From the NCBI RefSeq assembly GCF_014196455.1, contig NZ_JACIDS010000009.1, forward strand, positions 1 through 43,943: a stretch of 43,943 nucleotides of DNA. The letters are read 5' to 3'. This DNA is from Kaistia hirudinis (GTDB lineage: Bacteria; Pseudomonadota; Alphaproteobacteria; Rhizobiales; Kaistiaceae). The notes below the pieces were generated by a model. That model had not been told where the DNA came from, made no database searches, and worked only from the letters and a program-made list of their open reading frames with translations. Position numbers and translations under genes: made by a program. Below, in pieces: positions 1-13,306 of this stretch (position 1 is the first letter of the stretch; each line of letters begins with the position of its first letter).

Positions 1-27
1 ACGTCAGCACACCGCCTATTCGGGATA

Positions 28-37
28 TTGTATACCG
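28..37 (+). promoter_or_regulatory. GTATAC-type site upstream of the gamma-glutamyltransferase gene
   Basis: TTGTATACCG is seen here. A one-mismatch copy, TTGCATACCG, lies at 221-230, about 27 bases before the chosen start of the gamma-glutamyltransferase gene. The same core recurs at 7422, 7700, 8555, 11036 and 11054, always between genes. An operator of a shared regulator is inferred; a -10 element is the alternative. The rest of 1-256 shows no gene I can support. Confidence 0.4.
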
Positions 38-256
38 GACCAATCCCCGCGCAAGACCATTCTCGCGCCAAACCAACCACAAGGACGGTGATTTCAGGGG
101 CAATCCGGCGCTCGGAAGGGCATTCCGGTTGCACCGGCGCTTCACCCGTGCGCCTTCAGGCGCCACTTGCGACGCCGATGCGCTTGGACGGACCGAAAAT
201 ATGCGGTAACAACCTCCTAATTGCATACCGCTCCACTCCTTGACCGATCGAGCATC

Positions 257-1717
257 ATGACCCCCATTCCTCCCGAAGGCGCGCGCGGCAACGAGACGAT
301 GGTGGCGAGCGGCCATCCGCTGGCGGTGGATGCCGCGCTGCGCGCGCTGGAAGCGGGCGGCAGCGCCATCGACGCGGCAATCGCCGCCGATGCGATCCTC
401 GGCGTGGTGGAGCCGATGGCGACGGGGATCGGCGGCGACCTGCTCGCCATGATCGTGCCGCCGGACGGCGCGGCGCTCAGCTATAACGGCACCGGCCGCG
501 CGCCGGCCGGCCTCACCGCCGATCTGGTCGCGGCGCTGCCGAAGCAGCGCATTCCCGACCGCCATCCGCTCTCGACCACGGTTCCGGGCGCGGTGCGCGG
601 CTGGTTCGACCTGCATGCGCGCTATGGCCGCCTCGCCATGGCGGATCTGCTGGCCCCGGCGATCGCCCTCGCCCGCGACGGCTTCGTGGTCGCGCCGATC
701 TGCGGCCGCGAATGGACCATCTTCGAGAGCGTGATCGCGCGCGACCCGGTCGCCGCTGCGCTCTATCGCGCCGGCAATGTGCCCGGCGGCGGCGACGTCT
801 TCGCCAATCCCGAACTCGCCGCCTGCCTCGCGGCGATCGCGGCCGAGGGCCCCGACGCGTTCTATCGCGGCCGTGTCGCCGAGGCAGTCGAGGCGGCCTC
901 GCGCGCCCATGGCGGCGTGCTGCGGGCGACGGATTTCGCGGCGCATTCCGGCCATTTCGCCGCGCCGCTTTCGACGCGGTTCCGCGGCCTCGACATTCTC
1001 GAATGCCCGCCCAACACGCATGGCCTCGCCGTGCTGGAGGCGCTCGCCGCGCTGGAGCCGCTCACCCTCGATCCCGCGGATCCGCAGACGACCCTCGCCG
1101 CCGTCGCCGCCATGGGACGCGGCCTCGCCAAAGCGCGCGAGACCGTGGCCGATCCGGCCGGCAACACGGTCTGCACCGTCGTCGTCGATCGCGACGGCCT
1201 CGCCGTGACGCTGATGTCCAGCATCTTCAAGCGCTTCGGCTCCGGCATCGGCGTGCCCGGCTGCGGCTTCGTGCTGCAGAACCGCGGCTCCGGCTTTGCC
1301 GAGCCCGGCCATATCAACGGCCCGGCGCCCGGCAAGCGGCCCTATCACACGGTGATCCCGGCGGCCGCGCTGAAGGACGGCCGCTTCCATGCCGGCTTCG
1401 GCGTGGTCGGCGGCGCGATGCAGCCGCAGGGCCATGTCCAGCTCATGCTGCGCATCGCCGCCTGGGGCGAGCCGTTGCAGGCCGCGCTCGACGCGCCGCG
1501 CTGGCGCCTCGAAGGGCCCGGCGAACTCGCGATCGAGCCGGGCACCGACGCGGCGCTGGTGGCGGCGCTCCGCGCCGCCGGCTATGGCGAGCCGACCGGC
1601 GGGGAGATCGCCGGCCGCAGCGATTACGGCGGCGCGCAGATCGTCATGCGCGCTGCGGACGGTTCGCTCCGCGGCGCCTCCGACAAGCGCAAGGACGGGA
1701 CCGCGCGGGGCGCCTGA
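257..1717 (+). CDS. gamma-glutamyltransferase family protein (YwrD-like Ntn hydrolase)
   Basis: This is a 486-residue Ntn-hydrolase precursor of the gamma-glutamyltransferase family, which cleaves gamma-glutamyl bonds such as that of glutathione and matures by autocleavage before a threonine. The N-terminal core runs from MVASGHPLA through EAGGSAIDAAIAA and GIGGD. The cleavage-site region reads GNTVCTVVVDRDG, and the Thr of NTVC aligns with the nucleophile (TTHYSVVD in E. coli). It is followed by FGSGIGVPG and LQNRGSGF, as in the YwrD branch. I see no clear signal peptide, so the enzyme is probably cytoplasmic. ATG 257 is preferred to TTG 221, which overlaps a GTATAC-like site; neither has a good ribosome site. 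The gene converges on a peptide ABC operon, which suits import and hydrolysis of gamma-glutamyl peptides; that link is inferred. Confidence 0.88.
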   Translation: MTPIPPEGARGNETMVASGHPLAVDAALRALEAGGSAIDAAIAADAILGVVEPMATGIGGDLLAMIVPPDGAALSYNGTGRAPAGLTADLVAALPKQRIPDRHPLSTTVPGAVRGWFDLHARYGRLAMADLLAPAIALARDGFVVAPICGREWTIFESVIARDPVAAALYRAGNVPGGGDVFANPELAACLAAIAAEGPDAFYRGRVAEAVEAASRAHGGVLRATDFAAHSGHFAAPLSTRFRGLDILECPPNTHGLAVLEALAALEPLTLDPADPQTTLAAVAAMGRGLAKARETVADPAGNTVCTVVVDRDGLAVTLMSSIFKRFGSGIGVPGCGFVLQNRGSGFAEPGHINGPAPGKRPYHTVIPAAALKDGRFHAGFGVVGGAMQPQGHVQLMLRIAAWGEPLQAALDAPRWRLEGPGELAIEPGTDAALVAALRAAGYGEPTGGEIAGRSDYGGAQIVMRAADGSLRGASDKRKDGTARGA

Positions 1718-1727
1718 CATCAGACGG

Positions 1728-2735
1728 TCACCGGTGCCAGCAGGCGACCTTGTGGTCCTCGCCCTTGTTGATGAGCAGGGGCACCTGTAGCGAGCAGCGC
1801 TCGGTCGCGAGCGGGCAGCGGGCGTGGAAATGGCAGCCCGACGGCCAATGCGCGACGTCCGGAATGTCGCCGCGATAGATGAGGCGCTTCCGCGCTCTCT
1901 GGGTGCGCGGGTCCGGCACGGGCACGGCGGAGAGCAGCGCCTCGGTATAGGGGTGCTGCGGATTGTCGTAGAGCGCGTCGCGATCGGCGATCTCGACCAG
2001 ACGGCCCGAATGCAGGATCGCCACGCGGTGCGAGATGTGGCGCACGACCGAGAGATCATGCGCGATGAAGAGGTAGGCGATCCCCAGTTCCTTCTGCAGA
2101 TCCTGCAGCAGGTTGACGACCTGGGCGCGCACCGAGACGTCGAGCGCCGAGACAGGCTCGTCCGCCACGATCAGCTCAGGCTTCAGGGCGAGGGCGCGGG
2201 CGATGCCGATGCGCTGGCGCTGGCCGCCGGAGAAGGCGTGCGGATAGCGGTCATGCGCGTCGCGCGGCAGGCCGACGAGCCGCATCAGCTCGCCGATCTC
2301 GTCGCGCGCCTCATCGGCATTCTTCACGATGCCATAGACGATGAGCGGTTCGGCGACGATGTCGAGCACCCGCATGCGCGGATTGAGGCTCGCATAGGGA
2401 TCCTGGAAGACGAGCTGCATGTGGCGGCGGAGCTTACGCAGTTCCTCGCCGCGGACATTGGTGATGTCGCGGCCGCGGAAGAAGATGCGCCCGTCGGCGA
2501 GGTCGAGCCGGCGCAGCACGGCGCGGCCGATCGTGGTCTTGCCCGAGCCGGATTCGCCGACGAGGCCGAGCGTCTCGCCGGGCCGGATATCGAACGAGAT
2601 GTCGCGAAGCGCCTGCACCTTGCTCGGCTTCGACCAGAGGCCGCCGCGGCTGGCCTCATATTCGACCGTCATGCTGCGGACCGAGAGCACCGGCTCGCGA
2701 TCGGCCAGCGGCGGGAGGGAAAGAGCGGCTGACAT
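1728..2735 (-). CDS. dipeptide/oligopeptide ABC transporter ATP-binding protein (DppF/OppF type)
   Basis: This 335-residue ATPase is one of the two nucleotide-binding subunits of a peptide importer and acts on the inner face of the cytoplasmic membrane. Walker A is GESGSGKTT (residues about 60-68), the signature is FSGGQRQRIGIARAL, Walker B is LIVADE and the D-loop is SALD. The C-terminal oligo_HPY region with its Cys pair (CHFHARCP) marks the Dpp/Opp/Gsi group. It is the last gene of the operon, 8 bases after the dppD-type gene, whose stop lies inside its ribosome site (GAGG, 6 bases before ATG). The neighbouring gamma-glutamyltransferase makes glutathione or gamma-glutamyl peptides reasonable substrates, but the sequence does not fix specificity. 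Confidence 0.93.
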   Translation of the reverse strand: MSAALSLPPLADREPVLSVRSMTVEYEASRGGLWSKPSKVQALRDISFDIRPGETLGLVGESGSGKTTIGRAVLRRLDLADGRIFFRGRDITNVRGEELRKLRRHMQLVFQDPYASLNPRMRVLDIVAEPLIVYGIVKNADEARDEIGELMRLVGLPRDAHDRYPHAFSGGQRQRIGIARALALKPELIVADEPVSALDVSVRAQVVNLLQDLQKELGIAYLFIAHDLSVVRHISHRVAILHSGRLVEIADRDALYDNPQHPYTEALLSAVPVPDPRTQRARKRLIYRGDIPDVAHWPSGCHFHARCPLATERCSLQVPLLINKGEDHKVACWHR

Positions 2736-2743
2736 GGCGGACC

Positions 2744-3775
2744 TCAGGTGAGAGCGGCTTCGAGCGGCGGGCTTTCCTGCCAGGCCGGCACCGATGGCCG
2801 CCAGCAGGCGGCCGAGGCGCCGGGATGCACGACGGCCAACGGCGGCTGCTCGGTGCAGCGCTCCACGGCGATCGGGCAGCGCGCGCGGAAGGAACAGCCG
2901 ACCGGCGGCGACAGCAGGCTCGGCGGCGAGCCTTCGATCGCGATGAGGCGGTTCATGCGGTCGTCGAGGCGCGGCGTCGAGCGGATCAGGCCCTGCGTAT
3001 AGGGATGCGAGGGCCGTTCGAAGAGATCGTCGGCGAGGCCCATCTCGACGATCCGGCCGGCATACATCACCGCGACGCGGCGGCAGAGGCCCGCGACGAC
3101 GCCGAGATCATGCGTGATCAGGATGACCGAGAGATTGAGCGTCTCCTGCAGGCCCGCAATGAGCTCCAGCACCTGCGCCTGGATGGTGACGTCGAGCGCC
3201 GTGGTCGGCTCGTCCGCGATTAGCAGCTGCGGCTCGCAGGCGATCGCCATGGCGATCATGATGCGCTGGCGCATGCCGCCCGAGAGTTCGTGCGGATATT
3301 GGTTGGCGCGGCGCGGCGGCGCGGGGATGCCGACGGCCTCCAGCAGTTCGAGCACGCGGGTGCGCGCCTGCGTCTTGGTCATGCCGAGATGGCGCTGCAG
3401 CACCTCGGCGATCTGCGCGCCGACGGTGAGCAGCGGGTTGAGCGAGGTCATCGGATCCTGGAAGATCAGCGAGACCTCCTTGCCGCGGATCTCGCGCGCC
3501 CGCTTCGGACCGTCTCCGGTCAGCAGCGACTGGCCCTTCCACTTGATGTCGCCGCTGACGATGCGGCCGGGCACGTCGATGAGCCCCATCACGGCCTGCG
3601 CCGTGACGCTCTTGCCCGAGCCGGATTCGCCGACGATCGCCAGCGTCTCGCCGCGGCGGATCGAGAGGTCGACACCACGGAGGCCGTGAACGACGCCGGC
3701 CCGCGTATCGAACTCGACGCAAAGCCGCTCGACCTCGAGCAGAGGCATGTCGGAAATGGCGTCCATGGTCGTCAT
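2744..3775 (-). CDS. dipeptide/oligopeptide ABC transporter ATP-binding protein (DppD/OppD type)
   Basis: This 343-residue ATPase is the partner of the preceding NBD. Walker A is GESGSGKS (about residues 49-56), the signature is [15 protein letters not shown], Walker B is LLIADE and the D-loop is TALD. The C-terminal oligo_HPY segment contains [15 protein letters not shown]. The frame stays open upstream to 3958, but ATG 3775 gives the normal family N-terminus and overlaps the permease stop by four bases (ATGA), so translation is probably coupled. ATG 3766 is a second possibility. The longer start would add a basic, low-complexity stretch that mirrors the permease gene and is rejected. Confidence 0.93.
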
Positions 3776-4755
3776 GCCTCCACCGGGGCCGGAGCCGGCG
3801 CATCGTGCCGCTTGCCGCGACGGCGTTCGGCGGCCTTGGCGCGGGCGAAGCGCTTCTCGCGCTCCTGCGGATCCGTCGTGACGCGCATCCAGTTGGCGAA
3901 CAGGTTGATGGAAAGGACCGTGATCGAGATCGCCATGCCGGGGAAGGTGATCAGCCACCAGGCGACGAAAATGTAGTCCTTGCCATTGGCGACATCGAGG
4001 CCCCAGCTGGTCGCCGGCGGCTGCACGCCGAGGCCGAGGAACGACATCGCCGCCTCGGCGAGCACGACATTGGTGAATTCGAGGATGCCGAGGGTCAGCA
4101 GCGGCGAGGTCAGGTTCGGCAGGATGTGCCGGAAGATCACGCGGCCCGGCTTGCAGCCGATCATCTCGGCCGCCTCGACATAGGGCGTCTGGCGCAGCGA
4201 CAGCACTATGCCGCGCACCACGCGGGCATAGATCATCCAGTTGGTGATCGCGAGCACGACGATCATCGTGACGAGGCCGGGGCCGACCACCGAGACGATC
4301 AGCAGGATCATCAGCAGTCCGGGAAAGGCGACTTGGATATCGACGATGCGCATCAGCACCGAATCCGTGCGCCCGCCGCGGAAGCCCGCGACGAGGCCGA
4401 CCAGCACGCCGAACGCGCCGGCGAGCAGCACGACCGAGACGCCGGCGATCAGCGAGATGCGCGCGCCGGCGATGACGCGCGAGAACACGTCGCGGCCGAG
4501 ATGATCGGTGCCGAAGATATGGGCCCAGCTGCCGCCCGGCAGCCAGGCCGGCGGCTTGAGGCGCGCCACGACCGATTGGGCCGCCGGATCATAGGGCGTG
4601 ATCAGTGGACCGAAGATCGCCATCAGGATCAGGAGGACGATGACCGAGAATCCGAACAGGCCGGCCTTGTCGTAGCGCAGCTCCGTGAAAAAGTTGCGGA
4701 GCGCGCCGGGCTGGCCGGGAGACGGGGTGGACGATGTGGTGGTGGAGGCTGCCAT
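3772..4755 (-). CDS. peptide ABC transporter permease (DppC/OppC type)
   Basis: This 327-residue inner-membrane subunit has an N-terminal cytoplasmic arm rich in Ser, Thr and Pro. A first membrane segment lies at about residues 33-53, and the BPD_transp_1 domain with about five further helices follows. The coupling motif for the ATPase is [21 protein letters not shown], and the family sequences [22 protein letters not shown] and [13 protein letters not shown] are present in recognisable form. The C-terminus carries an unusual basic then Ala-Pro-rich tail (about 30 residues after the last helix). The gene lies 3 bases after the dppB-type gene and overlaps the dppD-type gene, so the four cytoplasmic and membrane subunits form one tight block. 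Confidence 0.92.
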
Positions 4756-4758
4756 CGG

Positions 4759-5679
4759 TCAGGCCAGTTTGATGCGAGGGTCGATGAGCTTGTAGATGAC
4801 GTCGAGCGTGATGTTCACGAGCACGATGCCGATCGCGACGGTGAAGACGATCGCCTGCAGCAGGAACAGGTCGCTGTGCCGGATCGCCTGCATTGCGGTG
4901 AGCCCGAGGCCGGGCCAGGCGAAGACGGTTTCGACCACCACCGTGTAGCCGGCGAGCGCCGAGATGAACTCCCAGCCGGCCAGCGTGATGAAGGGAACCA
5001 TCGCGTTGCGGAGCGCATGGCCAAACAGGACCTGGCTGAAACGCAGCCCCTTGGCCCGCGCGGTACGCACATATTGCTGGTTGAGCTCGTCGATCACCGA
5101 GGAACGCACCAGCATCATCAACCGCGCCGTCGCGGGGACGGCGAGGGTTATGGCCGGCAGGATGAAGTACTGCCAGCCGCCATAGCCCGATGTGGGCAGC
5201 AGCCGCCACTTCACCGCCACCAGCATGATCAGCAGCAGGCCGAGCCAGAACTGGGGTAGCGACAGGCCGAACAGCCCGCCGAACACGGTGATGCGGTCGG
5301 CGATGCCGCCAGGCCGGATCGCCGCGATCGCGCCGAGCGGCAAGGCGAGGATGATCGCGAGGCCGAGACCGGCCGCGATGAGCTTCAGCGTATTCGGCAG
5401 ACGGCCCGCGACCACATCCATGGCCGGGCGCCGCTGCCACATGCTCTCGCCGAAATCGAAGGTCGCGAGATCGCCGACAAAGGTGACGAACTGGTCCGCG
5501 ATCGGCCGGTCGAGCCCGAATTTGTGCTCGAAGGCGGCCCGCTGCTCGTCGGTGGCCGAGAGGGGCAGCATGACCTTGGCCGGATCGCCGACCAGTCGCG
5601 TCGCCACGAAGACGACGATCGTGACGCCCAGCACGACCAGAAAACCCTGGAAGATGCGCCGAAGGATGAACGCGCCCAT
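4759..5679 (-). CDS. peptide ABC transporter permease (DppB/OppB type)
   Basis: This 306-residue inner-membrane permease is the usual length for DppB. An N-terminal helix (FLVVLGVTIVVFVATRL) is followed by the periplasmic loop and a BPD_transp_1 domain with five helices. The coupling segment YVRTARAKGLRFSQVLFGHALRN and the SALAGYTVVVETVFAWPGLG region are typical. The start at 5679 has GAGG seven bases upstream. It is separated from the binding-protein gene by 138 bases that hold three inverted repeats, so its expression is probably lower than that of the binding protein. Confidence 0.93.
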   Translation of the reverse strand: MGAFILRRIFQGFLVVLGVTIVVFVATRLVGDPAKVMLPLSATDEQRAAFEHKFGLDRPIADQFVTFVGDLATFDFGESMWQRRPAMDVVAGRLPNTLKLIAAGLGLAIILALPLGAIAAIRPGGIADRITVFGGLFGLSLPQFWLGLLLIMLVAVKWRLLPTSGYGGWQYFILPAITLAVPATARLMMLVRSSVIDELNQQYVRTARAKGLRFSQVLFGHALRNAMVPFITLAGWEFISALAGYTVVVETVFAWPGLGLTAMQAIRHSDLFLLQAIVFTVAIGIVLVNITLDVIYKLIDPRIKLA

Positions 5680-5705
5680 TCCGCAACCTCGCTTGGAACT
5701 TCGAA

Positions 5706-5739
5706 GTGCTTCACCGCCTCGCTAGGAGCGGTGAAGCAC
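5706..5739 (-). other. intercistronic hairpin, 12-bp perfect stem
   Basis: GTGCTTCACCGC (5706-5717) is perfectly complementary to 5728-5739 around a 10-base loop. No T-run follows on the minus strand, so it does not look like a simple terminator. It lies between the binding-protein gene and the dppB-type gene and may stabilise the upstream message. Confidence 0.7.
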
Positions 5740-5750
5740 CTCGTTCGTTT

Positions 5751-5799
5751 GCATTGCCGCAATGCCTTCACGCGAGGCTGATGATGCCTCGCGTGAAGG
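5751..5799 (-). other. two adjacent intercistronic hairpins after the binding-protein gene
   Basis: CCTTCACGCGAGG (5765-5777) pairs perfectly with 5787-5799 around a 9-base loop, giving a 13-bp stem 18 bases after the binding-protein stop. Directly beside it GCATTG (5751-5756) pairs with CAATGC (5760-5765) around three bases, sharing base 5765. Hairpins in this place are known to protect the binding-protein message from 3' exonucleases and to cut downstream expression; that role is inferred here. Confidence 0.7.
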
Positions 5800-5817
5800 T
5801 GTCCGAGGAGGCTCCGA

Positions 5818-7302
5818 TTACTCGGAGACCTTCATTTCCTTGACCATCAGCTTGGCGTCGACGCGCGGCGCCCAGTCGAGGCGCTGCGAGAAGCCGTAGA
5901 TGTCCTGCATGTTCAGGAGCGGCACGAGATAGTTGTTGTCATGCGCCTTCTGCGTGATCTTCGCGTAGAGCTCCTTGCGCTTGGCAACGTCGGTCTCGAC
6001 GCGCGCCTGCTTGACCCACTCGGCCATCTCCTCGTCCTTGTTGGACGAAGCGGTGCCGCCGGCCTGATAGGCGAAGGAGGTCTCGCGATCGGCGTCGAGC
6101 AGCTCGTTCGAGTTCACGACGAAGACCGCATCGGGACGATGGTTCTTGTCGAAGAGCTGGTTCAGATACTCGCCGAACTCCTCGATCTTGAACTCGACGT
6201 TCAGCCCGGCATCCTTCCAGTAGGAGCCGACGGCCTCGATCAGCTCGCGATCCTTGAGCCAGCGGCCCGCCTCGCCGACGATGGTGATCGTCTTGCCTTC
6301 GGCGCCGGCTTCCTTGATCAGGGCCTTGGCCTGCGCGGGATCATAGGGATAGGGCTCGATCGCCTCGTTGAAGCCGAAGGCGCGCGGATTGACGAGCTGG
6401 CCCTTGGTCGGCGTCGCATAGCCGCCATAAAGGCTGTCGGCGAGCGCCTTGCGGTCGATGGCGAGGTTCAGCGCCTTGCGGACGCGCTCGTCCTTCGTCG
6501 CCTCGTTCTCCGTCGACAGGATGATGACGGCCGTCTCGACGCCCTGCACGGCGGCCGACTTCGGCACCGAGGAGACGAATTCCGGCAGCAGATTGGTGAT
6601 GACGTCGAGCTCGCCGGCCATCAGGCCGGACATGCGCGTTCCCGGCTCGCCGATGAAGCGGAAATGCACTTCGTCGATCGTCGGCTTGTCGCCCCAGTAA
6701 TCCGGGTTCTGGTCGAGCACGACTTCCTGGCCGCGCGTCCAGCTCGCGAGCTTGTAGGGGCCGGTGCCGGCCGGCTCGGTGGCGAATTTCGGATCGCTCG
6801 AATACTTCGCCGGAACCATCTTCATCCAGTACATGCGCGACGGCAGGATGGGGTCCGGACCCGACGTCTTGATGCGCACGGTGAGGTCGTCGACCTTCTC
6901 GGCGCCGGTCAGCGTGCCGAAATACGACATCTGCTCGGATGCGAAGGCCGGATCGATGATGCGGTCGACGCTGACGACCACGGCGTCGGCGTTGAACGGC
7001 TCGCCATTGGTGAACTTGACGCCGGGGCGCAGCTTGAATTCCCACGTCGTCGCGTCGATCTGCGTCGGCGGAGCTGCTGCGAGGCCGGGGACGAGCTCGC
7101 CCTGCGGCGTGCGCATCATCAGCGTCTCGTAGATATTGTCGTTGATGGCGCGCTCACCGCCGTCGTCGCGCTTCTGCGGGTCGAGCGTCGAAGCCTCGGA
7201 GCCGACCGCGATGGTGACCTGCGAGGCATGCGCAACCCCTGCGAACGGCAATGAAACCGCCGCCAGAAGCGCCACTCTGGAAAGCACTCTTCTTATTTTC
7301 AT
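5818..7302 (-). CDS. periplasmic peptide-binding protein of the ABC importer (SBP_bac_5 family)
   Basis: This 494-residue extracytoplasmic solute-binding protein delivers substrate to the permeases encoded downstream. The signal peptide is MKIRRVLSRVALLAAVSLPF with a likely cut after AGVAHA (about residue 26). The mature start (SQVTIAVGSEASTLDPQ), GTGPYKLASW and the FRFIGEPGTRMSGLMAGELDV segment are typical of the DppA/GsiB/NikA family. Two ATGs stand in tandem at 7305 and 7302; GGAG is three bases before the first and six before the second, so 7302 is preferred. A GTATAC palindrome at 7425-7430 overlaps the likely -10. The bound ligand cannot be read from the sequence. Confidence 0.92.
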   Translation of the reverse strand: MKIRRVLSRVALLAAVSLPFAGVAHASQVTIAVGSEASTLDPQKRDDGGERAINDNIYETLMMRTPQGELVPGLAAAPPTQIDATTWEFKLRPGVKFTNGEPFNADAVVVSVDRIIDPAFASEQMSYFGTLTGAEKVDDLTVRIKTSGPDPILPSRMYWMKMVPAKYSSDPKFATEPAGTGPYKLASWTRGQEVVLDQNPDYWGDKPTIDEVHFRFIGEPGTRMSGLMAGELDVITNLLPEFVSSVPKSAAVQGVETAVIILSTENEATKDERVRKALNLAIDRKALADSLYGGYATPTKGQLVNPRAFGFNEAIEPYPYDPAQAKALIKEAGAEGKTITIVGEAGRWLKDRELIEAVGSYWKDAGLNVEFKIEEFGEYLNQLFDKNHRPDAVFVVNSNELLDADRETSFAYQAGGTASSNKDEEMAEWVKQARVETDVAKRKELYAKITQKAHDNNYLVPLLNMQDIYGFSQRLDWAPRVDAKLMVKEMKVSE

Positions 7303-7421
7303 CATCCGCTCCGTTGCTCCAAGGCAATGGTTGTGGCGCAGCCCTGCGCTGCACCACGAGGCGGATCGACGGCATTCCCCGGGACCGCAGATTGGACATT
7401 CTCCAAATCCGAGTCAAGTCG

Positions 7422-7432
7422 TCAGTATACAA
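7422..7432 (-). promoter_or_regulatory. GTATAC-type operator overlapping the likely promoter of the peptide ABC operon
   Basis: On the minus strand this reads TTGTATACTGA. TATACT (7424-7429) makes a good -10, with TTGATC or TTTGAT 15-16 bases upstream as a weak -35. The site is about 120 bases before the binding-protein start. A repressor sitting on the palindrome would block the promoter; that is inferred. Confidence 0.45.
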
Positions 7433-7699
7433 CGCAATGATCTGGATCAAACTGGCCGGAAATCAACGCTGCGGCGGCGAAGCGTGACCGGTGCACGCTC
7501 TACGCAGCTGCGGCCGGCGGTGGTACCGGCGCCTCATCGAGGGCCTCGGGGACAAAAGCTCGGATTGCCGCCGCTATTCTCAGCACATGCCGTGTTTCTG
7601 GCCATGGGCCTCAAGGGCGTCGCGAAGGCTTGAATCCCAAGCGGGAATGGGTCTGCCGCGCTGCCGCCCATGAACAAAAAAAGGGCTGTTCGGCCGCAA

Positions 7700-7722
7700 T
7701 TGTATACGACATACTGAATACA
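7700..7722 (+). promoter_or_regulatory. GTATAC-type site with a second half-site
   Basis: TTGTATACGA at 7700-7709 is followed by ATACTGAATACA, so TGTAT (7701-7705) and ATACA (7718-7722) form an inverted pair 12 bases apart. It lies about 120 bases beyond the marR stop and about 400 bases before the binding-protein start. It could be an auxiliary operator or part of an unseen promoter. Confidence 0.35.
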
Positions 7723-7841
7723 TCGGATCGCGGCATTCCCCGGCGGCGCTTCCGGACCATGCGACAGGATCGTTTCCGCCTCAAGGCCATAAGAGCCGGC
7801 GGAAGCCGTCAGGCGCCAATCGCCGCGGCGAGACGCTCTTC

Positions 7842-8405
7842 TTAGGTGTGGTCCATCTTGGATGCACCGAGCGGCGCGCGTCCATAGCGATTGTTCGCCT
7901 CGAGCAGCTTGAGGATCGTCGCCACGAAGCGTTCGCGCTCATCCTCGTCCAGCGATTCGAGCAGCCGCGTCTGCGCCCGCGCCATGGCGGGGTGCATGCG
8001 CCCGACCAGTTCCTCCCCCTCCGGCGTCAGCCGCGCCAGAACCATGCGGCGATCCGCACGGCTGCGCATCCGCGCGACGAAGCCCCGCTGTTCGAGGCGC
8101 GCCAGCACATCCGCGACATTGGTCCGGTCGATCCCGAGCGCATTGGCGAGCGAGATCTGGTCGGTATCGGGATTGGTCGAGAGAATGGTAAGCAGCCCGT
8201 ATTGCACGGGGGTTATCCCGAACTCGGCGCATTCCTCGAAGAACAGCGCATAATGGATCTGGTGCAGCCGGCGCACGAGATAGCCGGGCCGCTTCCAGAG
8301 CGGCAGCCGCTCGGCCAGGGCCTGAAGGATCGGGTTGGGGCCGACCTCGGCCACCGGCGTTCCGCTCGCCCCCTCGCGCTTTGCTGCCGGTTCGGACCCC
8401 TTCAA
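7842..8405 (-). CDS. MarR family transcriptional regulator
   Basis: This winged-helix repressor-type protein has 187 residues from the start chosen here. The MarR fold covers RPGYLVRRLHQIHYALF (dimer helix), FGITPVQYGLLTIL, the recognition region ISLANALGIDRTNVADVLARL and the wing with ADRRMVLARLTPEGEEL. The frame is open up to 8609. TTG 8405 is chosen because GGGAG stands six bases upstream; GTG 8354 (shorter) and ATG 8519 (longer) are possible. MarR proteins often control aromatic or antibiotic catabolism genes beside them and sense the substrate. It is divergent from the ABM-GST pair and is the leading candidate to bind the GTATAC sites around it. Confidence 0.85.
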   Translation of the reverse strand: MKGSEPAAKREGASGTPVAEVGPNPILQALAERLPLWKRPGYLVRRLHQIHYALFFEECAEFGITPVQYGLLTILSTNPDTDQISLANALGIDRTNVADVLARLEQRGFVARMRSRADRRMVLARLTPEGEELVGRMHPAMARAQTRLLESLDEDERERFVATILKLLEANNRYGRAPLGASKMDHT

Positions 8406-8535
8406 TCGCAACTCCCATCGCCAGATGCAGCGCCGCAAGGCGCTCGCCCGCGCGCAGGATAGACCGAGACGGGCGAGCGCTACAGCCCGCCTGTCGCCTT
8501 GGGGCCCAAGCAGGCACATCCGCCGCCGGCGCGCA

Positions 8536-8565
8536 TTGTCCGAGATAAAAAAGGATGTATACTGA
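8536..8565 (+). promoter_or_regulatory. candidate promoter with GTATAC site for the ABM-GST operon
   Basis: TTGTCC (8536-8541), a 16-base spacer and TATACT (8558-8563) look like a sigma-70 promoter. The -10 lies within the palindrome GTATAC of ATGTATACTGA (8555-8565). The ABM gene starts 90 bases downstream and the MarR gene faces the other way, so a repressor here could act on both. Confidence 0.45.
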
Positions 8566-8652
8566 TGATTATCGGATGGGCGGCTTCCCCATCGACGCCT
8601 TCCGCGCACGAACTCTCATTCTCACGACAGTCCCGACCGAAGGAGCGAACTC

Positions 8653-9027
8653 ATGGCCCAGGAACCTCTCGCCAAGAAGGGCAACTTCCTGCACATCTAC
8701 GACTTCATCGTCGAAGCCGGCCGCGAGGAGGAGTTCATCAAGCTCTTCGAGGAATTCGACTATTCCGACGGCAACCCGATGCACAAATCCTCCGCCCAGG
8801 TGAAGGATGGCGTGCTGTGCCGCGACACGGAAAACCCGCAGCGCTTCTTCCTGATCGCCGAATGGGCCGACATCGTCGAGCATGCGCGCATCCGCAAGAT
8901 TCTCGCCGAGGAGATCAAGCCGGCCTTCGTCGGGCTGATCGAGGGCCGCAAATTCGTGCCGAAATATGTCGAGGTCGTCTCGTCGACCCCCGACGAGATT
9001 CTGAACGCGGCTGCCGCCTCCGCCTGA
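8653..9027 (+). CDS. small monooxygenase-like protein (antibiotic biosynthesis monooxygenase, ABM fold)
   Basis: This 124-residue single-domain protein resembles the ABM/dimeric alpha-beta barrel family: an opening strand (LHIYDFIVEAGREEEFIKLF), a middle strand that ends in RFFLIAEWADIVEHARIRK, and a C-terminal strand KYVEVVSS. Members act as cofactor-free quinol or polyketide oxygenases, as heme oxygenases, or as ligand-binding partners; which applies here is not visible. AAGGAG lies seven bases before ATG. Its stop shares one base with the start of the GST gene, so the two are co-translated. The place beside a flavin monooxygenase and a maleylpyruvate isomerase-like GST suggests a role in aromatic or quinol oxidation. 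Confidence 0.7.
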   Translation: MAQEPLAKKGNFLHIYDFIVEAGREEEFIKLFEEFDYSDGNPMHKSSAQVKDGVLCRDTENPQRFFLIAEWADIVEHARIRKILAEEIKPAFVGLIEGRKFVPKYVEVVSSTPDEILNAAAASA

Positions 9028-9668
9028 TGCGGACGCTCTACACCTTCTTCCGGTCCTCGACCTCCTACCGCGTGCGCATCGCGCTCGCGGTCAAGGGGCT
9101 GGAATGGGAGCCGCGCTATATCAGCCTGCCGAAGATGGAGCATCGCTCCGCCGCCTATATGGACATCAATCCGCAGGGCCTCGTGCCGGCGCTGATCGAC
9201 GGTGGCCTGCTGCTCGCGCAAAGCCTCGCCATCCTCGAATATCTCGACGAGGTCTATCCCGAACCGCGGATCCTCCCGGACGATCCCGCCGAGCGCGCCT
9301 ATGTCCGCGGCCTCGCGCAGATCGTCGGCTGCGACATGCATCCGCTCAACAATATCCGCGTGCTCAAATGGCTGAAGGCCCGCTGGGGCTTCTCCGACGA
9401 CGACACGAATGAATGGTACCGGCACTGGATCGCCGAGGGCCTGCGGGCCTTCGAAGCGACGCTGGTCCGCGAGGACCGGCACGGGCTCTATTGCCTCGGC
9501 GACGCGCTGACCATCGCCGATATCTGCCTCGTGCCGCAGGTCGCGAATGCCCGCCGCTTCGCCTGCGATCTCGCCGCTTTCCCGCTCACGACCGCCATTG
9601 CTGATCGCACCGCCGCGTTGCCGGCGGTCGAGAGCGTCGCGCCGCAGACCCAGGCCGACGCATTCTGA
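9027..9668 (+). CDS. zeta-class glutathione S-transferase, maleylacetoacetate/maleylpyruvate isomerase type
   Basis: This 213-residue cytoplasmic GST has an N-terminal thioredoxin-like domain with the zeta-class SSTSYRVRIAL motif (glutathione-activating Ser), NPQGLVPAL and the glutathione-binding SLAILEYLDE. The helical domain contains IVGCDMHPLNN and the N-capping YCLGDALTIADICLVPQV. Such enzymes use glutathione for cis-trans isomerisation of maleylacetoacetate (tyrosine breakdown) or maleylpyruvate (gentisate breakdown). The AQIVGCDMHPLNN segment resembles NagL-type maleylpyruvate isomerase as I remember it. No gentisate or homogentisate dioxygenase and no fumarylpyruvate or fumarylacetoacetate hydrolase lies in the window, so the substrate stays open. 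Confidence 0.85.
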   Translation: MRTLYTFFRSSTSYRVRIALAVKGLEWEPRYISLPKMEHRSAAYMDINPQGLVPALIDGGLLLAQSLAILEYLDEVYPEPRILPDDPAERAYVRGLAQIVGCDMHPLNNIRVLKWLKARWGFSDDDTNEWYRHWIAEGLRAFEATLVREDRHGLYCLGDALTIADICLVPQVANARRFACDLAAFPLTTAIADRTAALPAVESVAPQTQADAF

Positions 9669-9700
9669 AGCAGCCCGGCCCGCCGCCGGACGCGGCGCCC

Positions 9701-10948
9701 TCAGGCGACGCGCTGACCCGCCAGGCTCTGCTTGTCGTAGCCGGCGACCTTCTTGTAGCTGTTGGTGATCGCGGCGAGTTCCTCGGCCGAGATGACGTCC
9801 TCGATGCGGTCGAACGGCTTGTCGCCGCTCCTCAGATACACCTCGCGCAGGATCGCATCCGGCGGCGTGGTGCGGTTGGTGCGCACCACCTGCGCCGTCG
9901 CCGCGAGGCGCTTGTCCTCATAGAGCTTCAGCGCTGCCTCCGCGTCGGCATTGTCCGCCAACGCATCGGCGAGCGCGCGCGCGTCGAGGATCGCCTGGCC
10001 GGCGCCGTTCGAGCCGCGCGGATACATCGGATGGGCGGCATCGCCGAGCAGCGTGATCCGCCCGAAGCTCCAGCGATCCAGCGGATCCTTGTCGACCATC
10101 GGATATTCGAGGATCGAATCCGCCGCCCGGATCAGCGCCGGCACGTCGAGGAAATCGAAGTGCCAATCGTCGAAATAGCCGATGAAATCCTCGATCCGGC
10201 CCTGCTTGTTCCAGTCCTGCCGGTCGTGATCCGGCGTCTCGACCTCGGCGACCCAGTTGATCAACTGGTTGCCCTCGGCGTCGATATTGTTGCGGATCGG
10301 ATAGATGACCATCTTGCCATGCGTCAGCCAGCCGGCGCGGACATAGCTCGCGCCGGTCAGATAGGGCTTCCAGCGTGTCACGCCGCGCCACATGTTGACG
10401 CCAGAATAGATCGGCCCACCATCGCCGGGATGCAGCTGCTTGCGCACCTGGGAATGGATGCCGTCGGCCCCGATCACGGCGATGCCCTCGACCGTCTCGG
10501 TGTCGTCGTCGCGCCCGCCGATCGTGAAGGTCGCGCTCGCCTTGCCGTCGCCCTGGTCGACGCGCACGCAGCGCCGCCCGGTGACGACGCGACCCGCGCC
10601 CGCCTCGGCGACATAGGTCCGGTAGAGGATCTGCTGCAGGTCGCCGCGATGGATCTGGAACTGCGGCCATTCATAGCCGGCATAGGTTCCGACCGGCTCC
10701 TTGTAGACGAACTGCCCGAAGCGGTTGAAGAAGCAGGATTCCTGCGCCGTCACGGCCACGGCGGCGAGCGCGTCGCGCAGCCCGAGCTCGCAGAGCTCCC
10801 GGCTCGCATGCGGCAGGATGCTGATGCCGACGCCGATCGGCCGGATCTCGTTGGCGCTTTCATAGACGCGGGTGGAGATGCCGCGCCTGTGCAGCATCAG
10901 GGCGAGGGTGAGGCCGCCGATTCCGGCGCCGACGATGATGACGTCCAT
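9701..10948 (-). CDS. FAD-dependent aromatic-ring monooxygenase (PhzS/salicylate hydroxylase group)
   Basis: This 415-residue class A flavoprotein monooxygenase is expected to hydroxylate an aromatic ring using NAD(P)H and oxygen. It has GAGIGGL near the N-terminus (Rossmann GxGxxG), GADGIHSQVRKQL (the DG motif that binds both FAD and NAD(P)H) and GRITLLGDAAHPMYPRGSNG (the GD motif). IHRGDLQQIL, NMWRGVTRW and LINWVAEVETPD resemble the phenazine enzyme PhzS more closely than PobA. AAGGAG stands six bases before ATG. It is divergent from the SDR gene across a region with two GTATAC sites. No phenazine genes are present, so the aromatic substrate is unknown. Confidence 0.88.
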   Translation of the reverse strand: MDVIIVGAGIGGLTLALMLHRRGISTRVYESANEIRPIGVGISILPHASRELCELGLRDALAAVAVTAQESCFFNRFGQFVYKEPVGTYAGYEWPQFQIHRGDLQQILYRTYVAEAGAGRVVTGRRCVRVDQGDGKASATFTIGGRDDDTETVEGIAVIGADGIHSQVRKQLHPGDGGPIYSGVNMWRGVTRWKPYLTGASYVRAGWLTHGKMVIYPIRNNIDAEGNQLINWVAEVETPDHDRQDWNKQGRIEDFIGYFDDWHFDFLDVPALIRAADSILEYPMVDKDPLDRWSFGRITLLGDAAHPMYPRGSNGAGQAILDARALADALADNADAEAALKLYEDKRLAATAQVVRTNRTTPPDAILREVYLRSGDKPFDRIEDVISAEELAAITNSYKKVAGYDKQSLAGQRVA

Positions 10949-11020
10949 GGAATGCTCCTTGCCAGGTTCGCGGAACCTCGGGCTTCGATCCCCACGATAC
11001 TAATCGACGGTCCGCCCGGC

Positions 11021-11064
11021 CTGTCAAGAAAAAGGGGGTATACTGACGGAATTTTGTATACCGA
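11021..11064. promoter_or_regulatory. divergent control region with two GTATAC sites
   Basis: Two GTATAC palindromes begin at 11038 and 11056, 18 bases apart, within GGGTATACTGA and TTGTATACCGA. On the minus strand a perfect TTGACA lies just downstream of them (at about 11021-11027), pointing toward the flavin monooxygenase gene. The 171-bp region separates the flavin monooxygenase and SDR genes. Binding of one dimer per palindrome on the same face of the helix is a natural reading but is inferred. Confidence 0.45.
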
Positions 11065-11119
11065 ATTTGGCGGAGCCCGTTAGGATCGTGATGCCATCCC
11101 ATCAGACAGGAGACCAGCA

Positions 11120-11884
11120 GTGAGCGCAGCCTTCGACCGTGTCGTGATCATCACCGGGGCCGCCAGCGGAATTGGCGCGGAAACGGCGAGGACGCTGGCC
11201 AAGCCGGGGACGGCGCTCCTGATCCACACACGCAAGAACGAGGCCGGCCTCGCCGCGGTGGCCGAAAGCTGCCGGTCACTGGGCGCGCAAGTCGCGACGC
11301 ATATGGGCGATCTCGGCGATCCCACGGTGCCGGCCGCGCTCGTCGCAGCCGCCCGCGCTGCATTCGGCCGCGTCGACCAGATCGTCTCGAATGCCGGCCA
11401 GGCGAAGCGCTCCCGCTTCGGCGAGCTGACGCCTGAGGAACTCGTCGCCGCCTTCGATTCCATGCCGGTCGCGTTCCTGCGCCTCGTCACCGCGGCGCTG
11501 CCCGACATCGAGAGCTCGGCCTGCGGCCGCATCGTGGCGGTGAGCTCCTTCGTTGCCCACATCTTCGGCACGGCCGGCCTCAATTTTCCGGCGACATCGG
11601 CGGCGAAGGCGGCGCTCGAGGCATTGGTCAAATCGCTCGCCGTGCAGCTGGCGCCGACGGGTGCGACCGCCAATGCCGTCGTGCCGGGCTTCACGCGCAA
11701 GCAGGGCGGCGGCCATCTCGCCGCGACGCCGGATTCGCTGAAGACCGCCGTGGCGGTCACACCGACCGACCGCTTGACCGACCCGGCCGATATCGCCGCT
11801 ACGGTCGCCTTCCTGCTCTCCCCGGGCGCGCGGCAGATCACCGGCCAGGCCATCCATGTGAATGGCGGCCTCAACCTGCCGTGA
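11120..11884 (+). CDS. short-chain dehydrogenase/reductase family protein with altered active site
   Basis: This 254-residue Rossmann-fold protein has TGAASGIG (cofactor binding), VSNAG, the Ser of VAVSSF and a C-terminal GQAIHVNGG. In the catalytic YxxxK motif the tyrosine is replaced: residues 159-163 read TSAAK, from codon ACA at 11594-11596. Classical SDR chemistry needs that tyrosine as acid/base, so the protein may be inactive, may use another residue, or may bind rather than turn over its ligand. GTG is used as start with GGAG seven bases before it. It is divergent from the flavin monooxygenase gene and ends three bases before the DadA-like gene, with which it converges. Confidence 0.85.
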   Translation: MSAAFDRVVIITGAASGIGAETARTLAKPGTALLIHTRKNEAGLAAVAESCRSLGAQVATHMGDLGDPTVPAALVAAARAAFGRVDQIVSNAGQAKRSRFGELTPEELVAAFDSMPVAFLRLVTAALPDIESSACGRIVAVSSFVAHIFGTAGLNFPATSAAKAALEALVKSLAVQLAPTGATANAVVPGFTRKQGGGHLAATPDSLKTAVAVTPTDRLTDPADIAATVAFLLSPGARQITGQAIHVNGGLNLP

Positions 11885-11887
11885 CGT

Positions 11888-13144
11888 TCAGGCGCCGAAG
11901 CGGCTGGGACTGAAGCCCGCAATCTCGATCGGCGGCGTCCGGTCCGTCACGAGATCGGCAACGATCCGGCCCGTGAGCGGACCATTGGCGAAGCCGACAT
12001 GGCCGTGGCCGAAGGCGAAGACGAGACCGGGGTGGCGCGCGGCGCGGCCGATCACCGGCCGCCCGTCCGGCGTCGAAGGGCGGCTGCCCATCCAGGGCGC
12101 CGCCTCGATGGGCTCGGTCAGCGCGATGGTGCGGCCAGCATCGGCGGTCACGGCCTCGATCTGCCGATAATCCGGCGGATCGTCCGGCCGCGCCAGTTCG
12201 ACGCCGGTGAGCACGCGGATCGCGCCTTCCATCGGCGACATCACATAGCCGCCGGCGGCGTCATGCACCGGACGGCCGAGGACGACGTTCCCGGTTGGGC
12301 GATAGTGACGGTGATAGCCGCGTTCGGCCGCGAGCGGGATATGGTAGCCGAGCTGCCGTGCCAACCGGTCGGACCGCGCACCGGCGGCGAGCACGACGAA
12401 GCGCGCCTTGAGTGTTTCACCGGCGCCGCTAACCGTGAAGCCACCCTCGTTCGCCATCAGCCTGTCGACGGTGCCGGTCACGAAGCGGCCGCCGCGCTCC
12501 GCCACGGCGCGGGCATAGAGCGCCACCAGCGCGCCGGGGCTTTCGACCGAGCCGCTGTCGGCGAAGAAGATGCCATCGGTGAAGCGCGGCGCCAGATGCG
12601 GTTCCAGTTCGCGGATCGCGTCGGCGTCGACGGGTTCGGCCCGGACGCCGTGCTCGGCCAGGATCGCGCGCTCCAGCGCCGAGCCCTCGAAGGCCGCGCG
12701 AGTGCGATAGAGCCGGAGCCAGCCATTGCGGCGGATCATGTGGCGCGCGCCGAGGCGCTCGGCGAGCGCGACATGGCTGTCGAAGGCGCGGGCGACCAAA
12801 GGATCAAGCACCGCGGCGCTGGCGCGCCAATGCGCCGCGTCGGCGGCGGCGAGGAAGCGCCGCGTCCAGGGCAGGAGATGCGGCAGCGAGCCGAGGCGGA
12901 CGCGCACGCCGATATCGCGGCCGAGCGCATAGCCGGCGAGGCGGCTGCGGATGCCGGGGCTTGCGACCGGAAAGATCGAATTGCGGCTGAGCACGCCGGC
13001 ATTGCCGAACGAGGCCCGACCGCGCTCGTCGCCCGGATCGACCAGGACCACGCGCAGGCCGGCATCCTGGAGATGGAACGCCGCGGCGAGGCCGACAATG
13101 CCGGCTCCGATGACGACGACGTCTGCGTCATGCCGCGAGATCAA
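11888..13144 (-). CDS. D-amino-acid dehydrogenase-like FAD oxidoreductase (DadA/DAO family)
   Basis: This 418-residue flavoprotein has VVVIGAGIVGLAAAFHL near the N-terminus, then FGNAGVLSRNSIFPVASPG as in DadA, and a C-terminal WMGSRPSTPDGRPVIG and FGHGHVGFANGP. DadA enzymes oxidise D-amino acids or related imino acids and feed electrons to the respiratory chain. The open frame extends to 13240, but TTG 13144 has GGAG seven bases upstream and gives the expected N-terminus MISRHDADVVVIGAG. GTG 13150 is too close to the same GGAG. It may handle amino acids released by the peptide uptake system; no sequence feature proves the link. Confidence 0.85.
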   Translation of the reverse strand: MISRHDADVVVIGAGIVGLAAAFHLQDAGLRVVLVDPGDERGRASFGNAGVLSRNSIFPVASPGIRSRLAGYALGRDIGVRVRLGSLPHLLPWTRRFLAAADAAHWRASAAVLDPLVARAFDSHVALAERLGARHMIRRNGWLRLYRTRAAFEGSALERAILAEHGVRAEPVDADAIRELEPHLAPRFTDGIFFADSGSVESPGALVALYARAVAERGGRFVTGTVDRLMANEGGFTVSGAGETLKARFVVLAAGARSDRLARQLGYHIPLAAERGYHRHYRPTGNVVLGRPVHDAAGGYVMSPMEGAIRVLTGVELARPDDPPDYRQIEAVTADAGRTIALTEPIEAAPWMGSRPSTPDGRPVIGRAARHPGLVFAFGHGHVGFANGPLTGRIVADLVTDRTPPIEIAGFSPSRFGA

Positions 13145-13306
13145 ATCCACACTCCAGGGGTTGCTTCTCCGCCGGCAGGTCGCTCCCCTCCCGGCGCGAG
13201 CGTTCCGTACATGGATCGGCAGGAAAGCGATAGCGTGCAATCGCGCGTCACGCAGAGGGCCGAGGCCCTTTCGGTCACCTTGCGCGATCGCAATGCGGGA
13301 GCGGGA

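Follow-up and report, generated by a model that had tools for sequence, protein, structure and literature searches.

Which protein reads a rare palindrome that recurs between the genes of a single bacterial region? The question is raised by a 43,943-bp stretch of the Kaistia hirudinis genome (Alphaproteobacteria, Rhizobiales, Kaistiaceae; assembly GCF_014196455.1, contig NZ_JACIDS010000009.1, positions 1 to 43,943), referred to here at its full length as the window. In its first 11 kb the hexamer GTATAC lies near genes for a gamma-glutamyltransferase-family protein (GGT), a peptide-type ABC importer, a MarR-family regulator, a small conserved protein called ABM in an earlier note on this DNA, a GST, an FAD monooxygenase (FMO) and a short-chain dehydrogenase/reductase (SDR). 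Comparison with related genomes points to two readers instead of one. The GTATAC sites are quite probably operators of a catabolic regulon under two local regulators, the MarR protein at sites that we call class A and a GntR protein with an FCD domain at sites that we call class B.

Rarity and placement of the GTATAC sites

A string search of the window returned the six exact copies listed in the earlier note, at positions 30, 7425, 7702, 8557, 11038 and 11056. As stated there, all of them lie between genes, and a search of all 43,943 bp found no copy in the other 33 kb. Among 100 dinucleotide shuffles of the window the word occurred 0.81 times on average and at most 4 times, and six or more copies were seen in none. 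It is also scarce in the genome as a whole, with 63 copies in 5,259,388 bp (5.26 Mb) compared with 385 of the reversed word CATATG. This rate is far below that of the 11-kb region: 0.13 copies would be expected in 11,061 bp, which gives a Poisson probability of about 7e-9 for at least six in a region picked post hoc. Intergenic DNA makes up 11.3% of positions 1-11884, and the probability that six of six sites fall between genes is about 2e-6, again for a region picked post hoc.

The near-copy described earlier is present as well:

221..230, no strand assigned, near-copy TTGCATACCG upstream of the GGT gene, with a low score in the class A and class B models

The 35-base stretch holding it is identical in a congener, G347. 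The word is not peculiar to the 11-kb region. The extended form GTATACYGA occurs at 10 places in the genome, four in the window and three on contig C8, where the sites adjoin a different GntR gene and importer.

Two classes of site

The earlier note had aligned all copies into a single consensus, TTGTATACyGA. We reject this consensus because models built with one genome left out at a time divide the sites into two kinds. By the hexamer alone the two sets would have been pooled; it is the flanks that tell them apart. Class A is a 24-bp even-centred palindrome around GTATAC, about AAATARKCAGTATACTGMYTATTT. Class B is an odd-centred palindrome of the form ATACnGTAT, about GTATACnGTATAC, and was found by comparing the promoters of the GGT gene, of a gene for a CADD/PqqC-type iron enzyme (HDO) and of the HbpS gene; TTTGGTATACAGTATTCCAAA is an example from Aminobacter. 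The class A model was built from 23 distinct sites of other genomes, and the class B model from 13 non-window sites with the consensus middle TTTTGTATACAGTATACAAAA.

Applied to the window, the class A model ranks 8557 (31.2 bits), 11038 (22.6) and 7425 (17.7) first to third. Position 7709 comes fourth (12.3) and 11056 sixth (6.5), and both 30 and 221 fall outside the best 25. The top score in 40 Markov shuffles had a mean of 7.0 and a maximum of 19.1. With the class B model the first to fourth places go to 11055 (17.3), 29 (17.2) and 7715/7708 (15.5/15.4), and the top score in 60 shuffles had a mean of 9.6 and a maximum of 16.7. In addition, 36 hand-chosen promoter intervals were scored with leave-genome-out models against 300 shuffles each, the source of all counts out of 300 below. 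The predicted operators, none of which is assigned a strand, are as follows:

8548..8571, class A, MarR/ABM-GST divergent promoter (core 8557; 31.2 bits; reached by 0/300 interval shuffles)
11029..11052, class A, FMO/SDR divergent promoter (core 11038; 22.6 bits)
7416..7439, class A, before the importer's substrate-binding protein gene (core 7425; 17.7 bits)
11043..11067, class B, FMO/SDR promoter (core 11056; class B score 17.3, class A score 6.5; 0/300)
17..41, class B, contig edge (core 30; class B score 17.2, class A score -3.3; 0/300)
7696..7727, class B-like, distal importer promoter region (core 7702; class B score 15.4-15.5, class A score 12.3)

By these scores sites 30 and 11056 would be class B, and 7702 leans to the same class. 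The region of 7702 has a conserved island, GTATnnAGTATGnnGTATACAAT, in most of six aligned genomes. Site 11056 is kept in Kaistia dalseonensis and Prosthecomicrobium pneumaticum, reads GTATCC in G347 and is not aligned in two Bauldia genomes.

Class A sites and the MarR gene

A class A site is found in the ABM/MarR interval of nine out of nine genomes (in Novosphingobium this is an amidase/MarR interval), where 0-1 of 300 shuffles reach its score. Its core is GTGTAC in three of them, K. dalseonensis and the two Bauldia. The MarR gene would therefore have a palindromic operator at its own promoter in all nine. Class A sites also precede the FMO gene in 9/9 genomes and the importer in 6/6, with 0/300 shuffles in each case. 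The MarR protein is the best candidate for binding at 8557, 11038 and 7425, and to that extent its earlier nomination as regulator stands; sites 30 and 11056 match the second operator, as does 7702 less clearly.

The sites follow the regulator gene across genomes. A scan with the FMO protein, in which the best 80 of 300 relatives were kept, contains 10 loci with a MarR gene of at least 55% identity, and in all 10 the 250 bp upstream of the FMO gene include GTATAC. Among the other 70 the word is there only in L003, from P. pneumaticum, and that genome carries the MarR gene about 21 kb away with a site of its own. The word is thus just upstream of FMO in 11/11 loci known to have the MarR gene and in 0/69 where none was seen in the fetched stretch, some of those contigs being short. 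Fisher's test of 10/10 against 1/70 gives 6.7e-12 with kinship ignored. The site is absent from L010 (69%) and L012 (66%), FMO relatives of similar closeness whose fetched stretch has no MarR gene.

We also searched 397 genomes of the order for the class A pattern TCAGTATACNNCYTTT, which occurs at 10 places in nine genomes; the reversed control occurs 9 times in all 397. Within the genus and family (21 genomes, including that of K. hirudinis) it is present in 4/4 genomes with the MarR gene and in 0/17 others, and all five places in those four genomes are FMO/SDR or MarR/ABM promoters. The five remaining places, outside the family, are in L158-L161 and L166. The pattern is strict: the G347 site before FMO escapes it, and so do those between MarR and ABM in K. 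dalseonensis and P. pneumaticum. Homologues of the MarR protein were listed, at E 1e-35 or better, in 21 of the 397 genomes, K. hirudinis included. Where the MarR is at least 56% identical (14 genomes), the 500 bp upstream of the match contain GTATAC in 10. None of eight examined MarR paralogs of K. hirudinis, out of 14, has GTATAC within 500 bp. As a separate observation, the place at 1508 of L166, ATAAAGGCAGTATACTGACGGAAA in genome G185, scores 26.9 bits in the class A model, and no MarR homologue is listed for that genome at E 1e-35.

The recognition helix of the MarR proteins can be set beside the letters of their sites, as a description of selected rows and not as a statistical test. The helices TNVADV and ANVADV go with CAGTATACTG, which has CAG/CTG flanks, TSGADV (L114, L116) with GTATACTCC, NTAADV (L113) with TAGTATACTA, TTTSNV (L123, L126) with CAGYATRCTG, and TTTTGA (L127, L128, L130-L132) with GAAGYATRCTTC. 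An exception is L115, with TNVADV and a site that has CTG on one side only. Such pairing of helix residues with operator letters across species makes this MarR set a natural data set for MarR-DNA recognition.

Class B sites and an FCD-type GntR

The class B score is reached by 0/300 shuffles in 5/5 HDO intervals and by 0-3/300 in 6/6 importer intervals. It is likewise reached by only 0-4/300 at the promoters of a GntR gene in 5/5 genomes, which would give this regulator, too, an operator at its own promoter. At the same promoters class A is unremarkable in four of the five (54-128/300). The class B signal is weaker at FMO/SDR (0 shuffles in K. hirudinis, 1 in K. dalseonensis, 2 in P. pneumaticum, 3 in G347, 5 and 15 in Bauldia), and 4 to 121 of 300 shuffles reach it in the ABM/MarR intervals. 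On contig C10 of K. hirudinis and on contigs G347:C8 and G334:C20, the best class B match lies 46, 54 and 66 bp upstream of the GntR gene, respectively. These three sites were outside the class B training set, which did include the GntR-promoter sites of Devosia and Novosphingobium.

The GntR gene was found at E 1e-30 in 11/11 tested genomes with both MarR and FMO and in 0/5 congeners without the cluster. It was also found in one of five genomes with other MarR relatives, G216, at about 590 kb from the MarR gene. Helix-turn-helix and FCD domains (PF00392, PF07729) were identified in the Devosia orthologue (L011), which shares 73% identity with the protein of C10. None of the 15 NCBIfam matches listed passes its cut-off, the best being TIGR03338 (PhnR equivalog; 124 vs 271.5 bits). 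Taken together, comparison of the loci suggests that the FCD-type GntR protein probably binds the class B sites. The regulon that had been proposed for this region is supported across species, with a probable second regulator added.

Promoters and proposed regulation

The following promoter boxes are predicted close to the class A sites:

8536..8563, plus strand, probable ABM-GST promoter TTGTCC-16-TATACT, with the -10 box inside the class A operator
11022..11027, minus strand, probable -35 box TTGACA of the FMO promoter (TGTCAA on the plus strand in 6/6 aligned intergenic regions)
7412-7417, minus strand, possible -35 box TTGACT of the importer, overlapped by the class A operator at 7416..7439

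The earlier caution that TATACT resembles a -10 element was well placed, as at 8557 it doubles as the likely -10 box of the ABM-GST promoter. The arrangement TTGnnn-16-TAyACT recurs in seven aligned ABM-GST promoters, with TACACT in K. dalseonensis. Because TATACT lies inside the class A palindrome, bound MarR would block this promoter. The FMO TTGACA box starts about 13 bp from the class A centre, and the importer TTGAC box about 10 bp away.

In the scheme that we propose, the MarR protein (7842-8462) would bind class A at the MarR/ABM-GST, FMO/SDR and importer promoters, covering the -10 box at the first and abutting or overlapping the -35 box at the other two. The GntR protein encoded on C10, which by the gene order of a relative would adjoin the window, would probably bind class B at sites 30, 11056 and 7702 and at its own gene. 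The likely mode of action is repression lifted by a pathway compound, with two repressors serving one pathway signal each; the importer and FMO/SDR promoters have both classes. The shared regulon would take in the importer, the gamma-glutamyltransferase-like protein, the PhzS-like monooxygenase, the CADD-like iron enzyme and the ferredoxins. More speculatively, the two proteins, members of unrelated families, may have converged on the same GTATAC core and become wired into the same promoters (7425/7702; 11038/11056, 18 bp apart), sometimes at the same bases (L011:1263). They could then cross-bind or compete, yielding a two-signal decision, although we consider this idea rather unlikely. What began as a motif seen by eye is now a two-regulator map that can be put to the test, for an uncharacterised oxidative pathway of Kaistia, Prosthecomicrobium, Bauldia, Aminobacter, Devosia and Novosphingobium.

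Alternative explanations

Several observations weigh against two classes read by two regulators. Site 221 fits neither model, nor does the GGT interval of G347 (37/300 and 31/300 shuffles reach its class A and class B scores). The class A score of 7425 (17.7) is below the shuffle maximum of 19.1, so this site alone would not stand out by score, and the class B score of 7702 (15.5) is below the largest of the 60 shuffle tops, 16.7. Some sites score in both models: 7702, L011:1263 (22.6 in A, 28.0 in B) and, with 5/300 in class B, 8557. The Devosia GntR promoter reaches 2/300 in class A, and that of K. dalseonensis is weaker in class B (10.7, 4/300). The 11 loci with GTATAC upstream of FMO also belong to the nearest FMO relatives; those that share a genus (four Aminobacter, two Bauldia, two Novosphingobium) do not count as independent, and dropping one such genome leaves near-copies in the leave-genome-out model. 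The pattern TCAGTATACNNCYTTT was drawn partly from the four family genomes that have it, and therefore its absences from the other 17 are the informative part. C8:38048 scores 23.4 in the class A model, though it stands beside another GntR gene. The MarR protein of G242 (64%) has the helix TNVADV and no GTATAC, only GCATGC-type palindromes, with TTTTAATCAGCATGCTGATAAAAA elsewhere in the cluster. Among 20 distant homologue loci (L113-L132) GTATAC is near the MarR gene in only five, as palindromes amid other neighbour genes, for example AAATAGGTAGTATACTACTAATTT (L113) and AAATAGACAGTATACTGACTATTT (L122). L117 and L129 have no convincing related palindrome. On the supporting side, other distant loci do have one, about 20-360 bp from the MarR match, such as ATATCGTCAGTATGCTGACGATAT (L126) and GCGAAGTATGCTTCGC (L132), so that some distant MarR genes keep a related palindrome beside them amid other neighbour genes.

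Could the MarR protein alone bind every site, class B being only a weak or degenerate version of class A? GTATAC, and often ATACTG, is common to both classes, the double scores of L011:1263 and 7702 fit such a view, and the two regulator genes co-occur in 11/11 genomes, so that co-occurrence alone cannot separate them. However, class B is odd-centred and forms a longer palindrome at the HDO promoters, where class A scores are low (2.4 against 30.2 in class B for the second HDO copy of Aminobacter). GntR promoters have B without A in four of five genomes, and class A-type palindromes stand beside MarR genes in genomes without such a GntR at E 1e-30 (G181, G237, G351). A single regulator therefore seems improbable. 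A different possibility is that the regulators act as activators or anti-activators at some promoters, which would be compatible with two classes of site. The FMO operator is centred about 13 bp upstream of the likely -35 box, and placement upstream of -35 is also used by activators. On the other hand, the ABM-GST operator covers the likely -10 box, and most characterised MarR catabolic regulators repress; we think activation unlikely, to about the same degree as the cross-binding considered above.

The sites could instead be mere sigma-70 -10 boxes (TATACT or TATAC) conserved as such, and the shared spacing in the seven ABM-GST promoters is in favour of this. The FMO and importer promoters, however, have their conserved TTGAC 10-13 bp beyond the site centre, so TATAC is not their -10 box if the boxes are read rightly. 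Conservation moreover spans the 24-bp dyad, tracks the regulator gene and goes with its helix, and GTATAC is rare genome-wide. We regard this explanation as very improbable. Even less credence, indeed almost none, can be given to chance clustering of a rare word or to a mobile-element feature. The window edge is a repeat common to contig C6, but a duplicated enzyme gene explains that repeat, and the shuffle and Poisson statistics and the conservation of the sites at equivalent promoters in several genera speak against both ideas.

The contig edge and the HDO gene

Site 30 lies at the very start of the contig and had been linked to the GGT gene. A gene for a CADD-like enzyme, reading leftward beyond the contig end, is the more likely target, because the site resembles the HDO promoters of K. 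dalseonensis. In that species the genes past GGT encode HDO, two ferredoxins, a 97-aa protein, an aldehyde dehydrogenase and TauE, followed by an ornithine-cyclodeaminase-family protein, GntR, a reductase, HbpS and a second HDO. The two HDO copies (L139:7694-8457 and 16618-17381) are inverted, 98.3% identical over 764 bp, and flank the ferredoxin, aldehyde dehydrogenase, GntR and HbpS genes. Aminobacter (L181) also has two HDO copies. No HDO gene was found in the assemblies of K. hirudinis, G347 and G334. In K. hirudinis, contig C10 (6,886 bp) runs from the start codon (ATG) of the ferredoxin gene next after HDO to a point shortly upstream of HbpS. The same set of genes is carried by small contigs of G347 (8,137 bp) and P. 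pneumaticum (6,961 bp), which end in much the same places. Furthermore, the first 95 bases of the window also begin contig C6 (99% over 103; window 1-103, L001 1-103), probably an assembly break caused by a repeat.

Most simply, HDO would be present in two copies and, as a repeat, have dropped out of the assembly, site 30 would be the HDO operator, and C10 would lie between C9 and C6. The regulon thereby points to further pathway genes, namely those for the CADD-like iron enzyme, the two ferredoxins, the aldehyde dehydrogenase and the ornithine-cyclodeaminase-family protein, which narrows the search for the substrate. The start of C6 (L001 276-5763, L108 230-5949) carries, by inspection, a LysR gene, a ring-hydroxylating dioxygenase and a meta-cleavage set, which we take to resemble the phenylpropionate (hca/mhp) pathway.

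Genes of the cluster and known systems

Family searches (Pfam, NCBIfam) covered the window proteins up to 19829. The genes of the cluster are:

257..1717, plus strand, gamma-glutamyltransferase-family protein, GGT (PF01019, 3e-110)
1728..7305, minus strand, peptide-type ABC importer: OppF, OppD, OppC, OppB and substrate-binding protein (PF00005, PF08352, PF00528, PF00496)
7842..8462, minus strand, MarR-family regulator, candidate binder of class A (PF01047, 7.2e-15; start codon uncertain, perhaps 8354)
8653..9027, plus strand, conserved 124-aa protein, the ABM of the earlier note (81-95% identical in eight aligned relatives)
9027..9668, plus strand, zeta-class GST, maleylacetoacetate-isomerase type (TIGR01262, 259.3 bits vs cut-off 171.05)
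9701..10948, minus strand, FAD monooxygenase, FMO, PhzS-like group (NF005720, 582.4 bits vs cut-off 400)
11120..11884, plus strand, short-chain dehydrogenase/reductase, SDR (PF13561, 1.2e-46)
11888..13150, minus strand, FAD-dependent amino-acid oxidase-like protein (PF01266, 2.7e-60 for 11888-13240)

The amino-acid oxidase-like gene is beside SDR in K. dalseonensis and P. pneumaticum and is thus linked to the cluster in relatives. GGT belongs to PF01019 and is below the TIGR00066 equivalog cut-off (267.8 vs 357.85 bits). The ABM protein has no Pfam match at 1e-3 and no NCBIfam match at 0.01, which leaves its label unconfirmed; it matches 3gz7 weakly (E 0.26), and the confidence of its predicted structure (pLDDT 58.5) is too low for use. 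The gene families make the earlier story of import, cleavage and oxidation plausible: a compound that is peptide-like or conjugated may be imported, cleaved by a transferase-family enzyme (an amidase in Novosphingobium) and oxidised. With the genes of C10, the cluster is larger than was visible in the window. A LysR gene beside FMO was considered as the regulator and set aside as not general, homologues being labelled only in the Aminobacter loci shown, L006 and L007.

The MarR protein has the winged-helix domain (PF01047, 55.1 bits vs cut-off 24.6), and its nearest solved relatives by phmmer are PcaV (4fht) and CouR (6c28). It is below the cut-offs of the named MarR equivalogs HpaR (49.6 vs 121.2 bits), BilQ (53.7 vs 125) and, by a wide margin, Saro_0803, its best NCBIfam match (63.8 vs 200). 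Like PcaV and CouR, it is a winged-helix MarR encoded beside oxidative genes for organic compounds, with a palindrome at its own divergent promoter; unlike them, it stands in a different gene set and has a 24-bp GTATAC-centred site. The GntR protein resembles FCD regulators (PhnR-like, NanR, McbR) in its GntR and FCD domains, with TIGR03338 as the nearest family, McbR among the solved relatives and predicted self-regulation. It differs in being linked to a CADD-like enzyme operon and in falling below all listed NCBIfam cut-offs. FCD regulators such as NanR have GTATA-type operators. The nearest solved structure to FMO is 2rgj/3c96, listed as a flavin-containing monooxygenase and presumably PhzS. 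FMO is above the NF005720 cut-off. Its setting here looks catabolic, and no phenazine biosynthesis family was found among the scanned window proteins. HDO matches CADD/4-aminobenzoate synthase and PqqC by sequence and is below the CADD subfamily cut-off (98.8 vs 200); it differs from both in its neighbours, which are genes for two ferredoxins, for an aldehyde dehydrogenase and for a protein of the ornithine-cyclodeaminase family. Judged by titles and abstract openings among the matches listed, no description of the GTATAC motif or of the cluster was found in the open-licence literature; PMC13273656, in the part seen, concerns an IclR regulator. All this suggests a cluster of uncharacterised genes for importing and oxidising a compound, with two look-alike operators rather than one.

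GTATAC sites outside the cluster

Contig C8 (L104 1-16369) carries genes for another peptide importer, hydantoinase-like and, by inspection, DapA-like proteins, a GGT-like protein (41%) and the other GntR. It has GTATAC sites of its own, including the palindrome TCGGTATACCGA at 12802 of L104. Their membership in the same regulon was considered and is doubtful, since orthologs of the C8 GntR in the MarR-less congeners G278 and G099 also have GTATAC nearby. On C6, the site at 141947 (L105 5951; 24.0 in class B, 16.2 in class A) precedes the substrate-binding gene of another importer. Finally, of the copies at C2:937841 and C4:716026, one is inside a small, doubtful open reading frame and the other inside a long one.

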